A DNA stretch of 64,000 nucleotides from Serendipita indica DSM 11827. Lineage: Eukaryota; Basidiomycota; Agaricomycetes; Sebacinales; Serendipitaceae. Shown one piece after another: positions 36,909 through 39,006 of this stretch. Numbering within the stretch: position 1 is the first letter of the stretch; the number at the start of each line of letters is the position of its first letter. The translations under genes were made by a program, and so were the position numbers. The notes under the pieces are model-generated. The model did not search any database. It worked only from the letters and a program-made list of their open reading frames with translations, and was not told the DNA's origin. The stretch lies in the NCBI GenBank assembly GCA_910890315.1, contig CAJVGD010000001.1, positions 992,001 to 1,056,000 of the forward strand, in the 5' to 3' direction.

Positions 36909-39006
36909 AGTGAGCCTTGACGATAGCTTGCGCAACGTCTGACAATTCATTCCGTTGCTCGCTGGGTTTTTTGGTTGTGTCTGCCGGGTTTCATGGCACA
37001 GTGTGTGGCATTCTTGGACTATTGCTTCACTCTCCGCATCAGGATGCTGCTGCGGAAATCTGCGAGGGTCTTTCGCTCCTCCAGCACCGCGGCCAGGATG
37101 CCTGTGGCGTGGTGACCTGCGGCTCCAAGGGCAGGCTGTATCAGTGTAAAGCAAATGGAATGGTTCGAGACGTGTTCGATAAAAAGGCTGTAGCACGCCT
37201 TGTTGGCTCCATGGGCATCGGCCACGGTCAGTTTTTTTTATGGATTTGAGCACCAAACGCAGACTGACATCCGTCGCTCTGTAGTCAGATATCCTACTGC
37301 TGGATCCTCTGCACATGCAGAGGCACAACCATTCTACGTCAATAGTCCCTATGGCATCGTCCTCGCGCACAATGGCAATCTTACCAATACTCATGAACTC
37401 AAGCATTTCCTGGACGCGGATGCACATCGACATATCAATACCGAGTCGGATTCCGAGGTACTATTGAACATTTTCGCAAACAATCTCCAAAAGACGGGCA
37501 AGTTTCGTATCAACGAGGAGGATATTTTTACGGCCATCAAGGACCTAATGCTCGAATGCAAAGGAGGCTACGCCTGCGTCGCCATGCTCGCTGGATTCGG
37601 TATTATCGCGTTTAGGGACCCATGCGGTATTCGGCCCGTCGGTATGGCGGTTAGGTCGGTCCCCAATTCGGACGGCAAAGACTACCTATTTTCAAGCGAA
37701 AGCGTGGTCGCAGATGCAGCTGGGTTCACACATTGGGATGACGTTCGAGCTGGTCAGTTCTTTCCACTTTGACAGGACAAATGGTTCACTCACTTGGCTG
37801 GATGCAGGCGAGGCAATAATCATTACGCGCACCACAGTCTCGCGTCGTGTCCTCGTGCCAGACAAGACATTTGCGCCCGACATTTTTGAGTGGGTCTACT
37901 TTGCTCGACCCGACTCGGTGCTCGACGGTGTGTCTGTATATCGGAGCCGAATGGCTATGGGCGACTTGCTTGCCGAAGAAGTCCGTCGTGTGCTCGAGAT
38001 GAAGCAAATAGAGGTCGATGTCGTCATTCCTGTAAGTGCTCTTTGTTTGTCGGGCCGTGATTTCTGATGGAGCATGATAGGTACCGGATACGTCGCGCGT
38101 CGCAGCGCTCAACTTGGCCCAGAAGCTCGGTCTCCCTTACCGAGAGGGCTTTGTGAAAAACCGATATGTCGACCGAACCTTTATTATGCCTGGTCAGCAG
38201 ATGCGGTACGGATACATGGTATTCGTTTGCAAAATACTGACAAGTTTAGTCGAAAAAATGTCCGAAGAAAGCTAAACGCAATGGCTTTGGAGTTTTCTGG
38301 CAAGAGCGTGCTCATTGTCGATGGTGCGTTTACCTTTGGCAGCAAAGGTGCCTCTAATGTGCATCCAGATTCGATTGTCCGCGGGACAACGTCAAAGGAG
38401 ATAATACAAATGGCCAAGGATGTGGGCGCTAGAAAAGTCATTTTTGCTTCGTGTGCTCCCCCGATCCGGTACGTCTCGCTAGCCGTTTGGACAGCCCAGC
38501 TGACCGCACCAAGGTTTTCAAACGTATACGGCATCGATATGCCTTCACGCGAGGAATTAGTCGCGTATCATCGTAATCCGGATCAGATCGCCGAAGCCTT
38601 GGGAGCCGACCTGGTCATCTACCAAACGCTGCCCGACCTTGTTCGCTCAGTACAGCAATTCAATCCCAAGCTGACACACTTTGATTGTTCAGTGTTCACT
38701 GGGGAATACGTTACGGGGGATATTGACGAAAACTATCTTCAGCACATTGAAAGCCTACGCAGCGAAAAGGCAAAGTTGATCGCGCCCACTCCTGCACCTC
38801 CTCATGGTTCGTATACCCAGGGTGGCATGACGAACGGTGTACGCGTGAACAGTGCCATGACGAGCAACCTTACTGCTGCGATGCAGATGCTCGCCGACGA
38901 AGAGGCAATGAAGCGTCGAGAGGCAATGGCCAGTTGTTCTGGTCCAATGAATGGAGCGGATGACAATATCGGTTTGCATAATACGTTCAACGTCGGATCT
39001 GTTTGA
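36909..39006 (+). CDS. ADE4: Amidophosphoribosyltransferase (PRPP amidotransferase), start codon split by an intron
   Basis: First step of purine synthesis: transfers the glutamine amide to PRPP. The N-terminal nucleophile Cys must follow the initiator Met, and the family start MCGILG is found with TGTGGCATTCTTGG at 37003. No ATG is next to it; the bases before TGTGTGGC are CACAG, an intron acceptor, and 91 nt upstream is GAGA with a GTGAGC donor. Joining A36909 to TG37001 recreates ATG, giving [17 protein letters not shown]. Other motifs: [28 protein letters not shown] (glutaminase), [12 protein letters not shown] and the PRPP-binding loop [15 protein letters not shown], where a typical [17 protein letters not shown] loop is expected; [10 protein letters not shown] lies just after it, so an insert or a mis-modelled intron is likely here (38323-38370). 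Conserved ASCAPPIR follows. Stop TGA at 39004-39006. Confidence 0.92.

Follow-up and report, generated by a model that had tools for sequence, protein, structure and literature searches.

Gene organization at the ADE4 locus

The window analyzed in this study is a 64,000-nucleotide stretch of Serendipita indica DSM 11827, taken from a genome assembly of 24.7 Mb in 55 contigs. It contains a gene for amidophosphoribosyltransferase, ADE4, at positions 36909-39006 of the forward strand, whose joined reading frame consists of eight exons and encodes 569 amino acids (aa). A TATA-like box lies upstream; transcription presumably begins ~30 nt downstream of it, and the 5' end of exon 1 (36795) is a guess taken from its position. 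The features of the locus are as follows:

36763..36770, + strand: TATA-like box TATAAAAC, read in the sequence, probable core promoter
36795..36909, + strand: exon 1, a 5' leader without ATG, with its last base, A 36909, as start-codon base 1
36910..37001, + strand: intron 1, 92 nt, GTGAGC...CACAG, phase 1 within the start codon
36939-36943, + strand: candidate branch site CTGAC of intron 1, read in the sequence
36993..37115, + strand: 40-aa ORF in another frame, starting at an intronic ATG in unspliced RNA
37001..37003, + strand: GTG in frame, adjoining the Cys codon in unspliced RNA (acceptor G plus TG)
37002..37226, + strand: exon 2, start-codon TG followed by TGT GGC ATT
37004-37006, + strand: Cys codon TGT in exon 2, N-terminal nucleophile
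37285..37752, + strand: exon 3
37808..38031, + strand: exon 4
38081..38205, + strand: exon 5
38250..38323, + strand: exon 6
38369..38468, + strand: exon 7
38514..39006, + strand: exon 8, ending in the stop codon TGA

Directly upstream of ADE4 and on the same strand is an S-adenosylmethionine synthetase gene (35214-36489, +), recognized by its Pfam N, M, and C domains. S-adenosylmethionine synthetase domains are also fused to ADE4 in the homologous protein models P0123 (Pleurotus djamor) and P0114 (Astraeus odoratus), which suggests that the two genes adjoin each other in other orders too. On the opposite strand, an open frame at 38755-39873 (-), convergent with ADE4, contains a FolB (dihydroneopterin aldolase) domain.

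Identity of the enzyme and its Met-Cys start

The predicted ADE4 protein matches the NCBIfam profile TIGR01134 (purF) with 443.2 bits against a cut-off of 350, and the match spans residues 2-471 of the protein and positions 1-431 of 432 in the profile, that is, a full-length equivalog match. Long matches to solved amidophosphoribosyltransferase structures were also found among PDB chains. In four PurF-type chains (1ecb, 6czf, 1gph, and 1ao0), the first chain position is aligned with ADE4 residue 2, a Cys. We take these four to be bacterial proteins, and since their source is bacterial, their genes lack spliceosomal introns, unlike Serendipita ADE4. By analogy, the initiator Met of Serendipita ADE4 is likely cut off, so that Cys would become residue 1 and the nucleophile of the glutamine amidotransferase domain.

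Three other genes in the same genome, which we take to encode two asparagine-synthase-like proteins (L006 and its second copy L008) and one GFA1-like protein (L007), also begin with Met-Cys-Gly and have the same kind of nucleophile. Their starts, however, are contiguous (ATGTGC, ATGTGT), whereas that of ADE4 is split. A split start codon as a genome-wide property of Met-Cys enzymes was therefore rejected: the others found have a contiguous ATG, and not every such enzyme shares the split. The two asparagine-synthase-like loci, L006 (G000:C3:4001-12000) and L008 (G000:C1:1347001-1356000), share an identical upstream stretch and both have the Met-Cys start, and a short segment of the C1 copy departs from L006 in a way that resembles a local frame shift.

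Sequence evidence for a split start codon

The Cys codon of ADE4 is not preceded by any contiguous in-frame ATG between 36400 and 37010. This region contains just two ATGs, at 36735 (opening a 7-residue ORF) and at 36993 (opening the 40-residue ORF), both of them out of frame, and no ATG in any frame is present in 36738-36992. Stretches of 255 nt free of ATG account for 1.9% of those on the + strand when the window is sampled every 50 nt. Joining A 36909 to TG 37002-37003 gives ATG TGT GGC, or Met-Cys-Gly, and thereby places Cys directly after the initiator Met in the sequence MCGILG. The donor reads AGA|GTGAGC, with its GT at 36910-36911, and the acceptor CACAG ends at 37001, so that the locus has a GT donor after A and an AG acceptor before TG. 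The spliced frame reads ..SSDIRGE-MCGILG and the retained frame ..GTVCGILG. At the RNA level, spliced transcripts are predicted to carry the leader end GGCGAG before ATGTGTGG, and transcripts retaining intron 1 to read CACAGTGTGTGG.

The preliminary description of this locus had proposed such an A|TG split, and our reading bears it out, including the last exon 1 base A 36909 and the donor GAGA|GTGAGC, both of which can be read directly as claimed. An upstream in-frame ATG, named there as an observation that would speak against the split, is absent from 36400-37010. Several of its positions need to be shifted by one base. The donor side of the intron (36910) stands, but the acceptor ends at 37001 rather than 37000, which makes the intron 92 nt long; the TG, given there as 37001-37002, is at 37002-37003; and the nearest intronic ATG is in a different frame as described, but occupies 36993-36995 instead of starting at 36992.

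The acceptor is tightly constrained by the sequence. The AG at 37000-37001, within CACAG, is the sole AG in 36927-37040, hence any exon placed before the Cys codon must join there, and because a Met is required, the upstream exon must end in A. Five GTs preceded by A are present in 36738-36998, and the donor at 36910 scores highest among them, although this ranking is weak evidence since the matrix was built from just six other ADE4 introns. With the same matrix, the GT at 36977 scores slightly above it (-0.06 vs. -0.18); this candidate was rejected as a donor, since it follows a T and leaves just 25 nt to the acceptor. The motif RGTRAGY occurs once on the + strand of 35074-39883, at the intron 1 donor, but its count in the window on both strands (62 vs. 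54.3 expected) is not clearly above chance. The branch-site candidate CTGAC is 59 nt from the acceptor, and such a distance is long for a fungal intron. The case against a chance arrangement rests on the forced acceptor together with the transcript-like protein and the comparative pattern described below, and not on the donor motif.

Transcript-like public proteins

Two transcript-like public protein sequences bear on the predicted junction. P0001 (source 'lgn') is 569 aa long, identical to the predicted ADE4 at 568 of 569 residues (the difference being A175S), and starts with MCGILG. It represents 38 contigs, the longest of 4097 bases. P0002, derived from one contig of 2029 bases, has 566 aa with 85% identity and starts with MCGILG as well. 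The six downstream ADE4 introns are absent from the P0001 reading, and this uninterrupted frame would come from either spliced RNA or a splice-aware prediction. Judging from the short contigs and the loss of the six introns, the 'lgn' contigs are probably RNA. The MCGILG start of both proteins fits an RNA with a 36909/37002 junction. The same start could come from RNA retaining intron 1 if a caller wrote M for GTG, which seems unlikely for 38 contigs.

Comparison across fungal homologs

Three protein searches, listing the best 120 matches of 8000, of 309, and of 7999 proteins respectively, returned 175 distinct homologs. Because these are best-120 listings and the second query was picked for a model without Met, the residue counts given below are not frequencies. 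Among the matches listed, the closest named ADE4 proteins are those of Serendipita sp. 411 (85% identity) and Serendipita vermifera (83%). A degenerate ADE4 pattern searched in the viral and prokaryote collections gave 0 matches in each.

Met precedes the catalytic Cys in 142 of the 175 listed homologs, at position 1 in 121 and after an N-terminal extension in 21. In 25 others this residue is not Met but Val (13), Leu (11), or absent (one, the partial model P0143, which begins at Cys itself). All 24 identifiable non-Met residues in these listed homologs are thus Val or Leu, in models that span 15 genera as counted by name. Val and Leu together make up just 16% of the residues in the listed homologs, so 24 of 24 can hardly be due to chance, even when genera alone are counted. 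At the next position outward, nine different residues occur among the 21 extended Met models. Met, Val, and Leu, the full set that an NTG codon can encode, would correspond to ATG, GTG, and CTG or TTG, i.e., a constant TG before the Cys codon with a varying first base. The Cys motif is missing from the remaining eight of the 175 (P0003, P0004, P0009, P0021, P0047, P0078, P0088, and P0114), of which just P0003 and P0004 were used as evidence. Two of the eight, P0009 and P0088, are homologs on short contigs that read MRGILG and MSGILG, with Arg or Ser replacing the catalytic Cys after Met, through either sequencing error or a genuine loss.

In the 13 Val models, the preceding codon can end in A in eight, cannot in two, and is lacking in three that have no preceding residue. 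The eight would fit a reading that runs into an AG acceptor, and the two would have to be joins. Within Lentinula, P0147 (L. raphanica) reads ..VQV-SFCVFILDLSVYHSRDKFL-V-CGILG vs. ..EQV-M-CGILG in P0150 (L. boryana). By our own reading from the protein letters, P0147 appears to keep the intron, with Ser representing the A|GT donor and Val the G|TG acceptor; the retained stretch would span 57 nt, which is divisible by three, and the model could therefore stay open. The fusion model P0123 (P. djamor), in which the S-adenosylmethionine synthetase sequence ..TASYGHF runs straight into VCGILG, is likely another join at the phase-1 acceptor. Within Lentinula, and likewise within Suillus, the models differ in having M, V, or L before Cys. 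In Serendipita, the models P0003 and P0004 start at a Met equivalent to residue 54 of the predicted ADE4 and do not include the nucleophile. A further fusion, the 706-aa ADE4 model P0127 of Cyclocybe aegerita, is named pre-rRNA-processing PNO1 and has an extra domain first and the ADE4 part behind it; this is perhaps a by-product of a missing contiguous start.

The Val and Leu models among the listed homologs come from six orders (Sistotremastrales, Hysterangiales, Atheliales, Russulales, Boletales, and Agaricales), and the window and the two truncated Serendipita models add a seventh, Sebacinales. This distribution points to an old split start across seven orders of Agaricomycetes. As for the comparison with related basidiomycetes suggested in the preliminary description, the gene models of homologs would indicate a shared phase-1 acceptor immediately ahead of TG. 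The evidence from relatives is indirect, as it is drawn from protein models. The 121 of 175 with MCG at position 1 do not discriminate: either a correctly modeled split start or a contiguous ATG could lie behind them.

Proposed mechanism

Based on the above, we propose that a phase-1 spliceosomal intron lies inside the start codon of ADE4, that the ATG is made by splicing, and that this arrangement is old and held in place by the fixed Met-Cys start; we place the probability of this explanation at about 0.95. Exon 1, the ATG-free leader, would contribute just the A, and removal of 36910-37001 would join it to TG to form ATG-TGT-GGC, at which ribosomes would begin. The intron would be old, since traces of an acceptor immediately ahead of TG are seen in models from several Agaricomycetes orders. 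It has probably been kept because a fixed Met-Cys start leaves no room for either the intron or the start to shift. The anatomy of the sequence, its reading frame, a public protein of spliced type, and the N|TG mark among gene models are direct observations; splicing of intron 1 in the living cell is our inference, as are the age of the intron and the reason for its conservation.

In unspliced RNA, a scanning ribosome would meet AUG 36993, which opens the 40-aa ORF, ahead of the GUG at 37001-37003. Near-cognate initiation at GUG with Met-tRNA would yield an identical Met-Cys start, albeit weakly. The preliminary description held that unspliced mRNA cannot make the enzyme. The loss of the ATG is as described, but given the in-frame GTG before Cys, which could weakly yield Met-Cys, "cannot" should be "hardly".

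Alternative explanations

That GTG could in principle be the genuine start in a gene without any start intron, as it is in frame, adjoins TGT, and has an A at -3. An A|TG split whose acceptor is AG, however, always places a GUG directly before Cys in unspliced RNA, so its presence follows from the geometry of the split, and the out-of-frame AUG 36993 would be reached before it. Moreover, 11 of the listed homologous models have Leu at this position, which C|TG or T|TG can give and a contiguous GTG cannot. We consider initiation at GTG in unspliced RNA very unlikely. Much the same holds for a split start that uses another donor, e.g., A|GT 36819 or 36755. Either one likewise comes after an A and would produce an ATG, but they score -5.96 and -1.45 vs. 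-0.18 for 36910 in the matrix of six ADE4 introns, and 36755 precedes the TATA-like box; there is little room for such a donor. In Bacillus PurF and human PPAT, a propeptide is cleaved to expose the Cys, and an upstream start of this kind would agree with the N-terminal extensions in the 21 Met models and in 20 of the 24 Val/Leu models among the listed homologs (the other four being partial). A similar in-frame extension before MCG is also common to three Lentinula models; these models may include a leader that was translated, or Lentinula may have a genuine start farther upstream. Among the extensions listed, however, no likeness is visible across genera, but only within Lentinula, Athelia, and Suillus. 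In the window itself, no ATG is present in 36738-36992, the unspliced frame is interrupted by TAG 36890-36892 and TGA 36911-36913, a stop is the tenth codon before the ATG in the spliced frame, and P0001 and P0002 start with MCG. A cleaved propeptide in this protein is thus extremely improbable.

The split might additionally act as a regulatory gate, in which retention of intron 1 shuts off purine synthesis in some condition. Retention would remove the ATG and open the 40-aa out-of-frame ORF, and the intron's position looks broadly conserved; to explain this conservation, however, a fixed Met-Cys start would be enough. An Rfam search of 36500-37300 gave no match with E up to 1, and the folding of intron 1 is not unusual (z 0.86). 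On the same two grounds, a riboswitch or structure-controlled intron was rejected. We regard such a gate as improbable, and are similarly doubtful of its broader form, in which the A|TG split has been kept across Agaricomycetes because the first step of purine synthesis is gated through splicing; retention would leave just a weak GUG, and splicing efficiency would set enzyme output.

Implications and comparison with known systems

In ADE4, a split start codon seems to have been retained over much of a fungal class, being pinned to a catalytic N-terminal Cys. Such a split would account for public ADE4 models from Serendipita, Suillus, Lentinula, Mycena, and other genera in which the catalytic N-terminus is missing or distorted, as well as for the fusion of some of these models to a neighboring gene. 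Both gene finders and near-cognate GUG initiation on RNA that keeps the intron could be tested cleanly on this gene. Should retention turn out to be regulated, purine synthesis would gain a further point of control.

Introns at start codons have been described in Yarrowia lipolytica, where one class of 42 introns (among classes of 561, 42, 1700, and 118) has the 5' splice site directly after one of the three start-codon bases, A, T, or G (PMC13309789). Serendipita ADE4 resembles these in that its 5' splice site directly follows the A. In contrast, Y. lipolytica is an ascomycete yeast, its 42 introns include those after a full ATG, and no ADE4 case appears in the excerpts of that paper available to us (PMC13309789). 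For the gene finder Tiberius, released in 2024, an inability to predict spliced start codons is stated (PMC11645249). This statement names the type of gene structure seen in ADE4, but in general terms, and the available excerpt gives no gene, fungus, or conserved case (PMC11645249). No paper on a split ADE4 start was found in the open-licence full-text literature, as far as its accessible excerpts go. Split start codons as such are thus already known; what the ADE4 case adds is that it seems to extend through a class of fungi and would account for errors in annotation.
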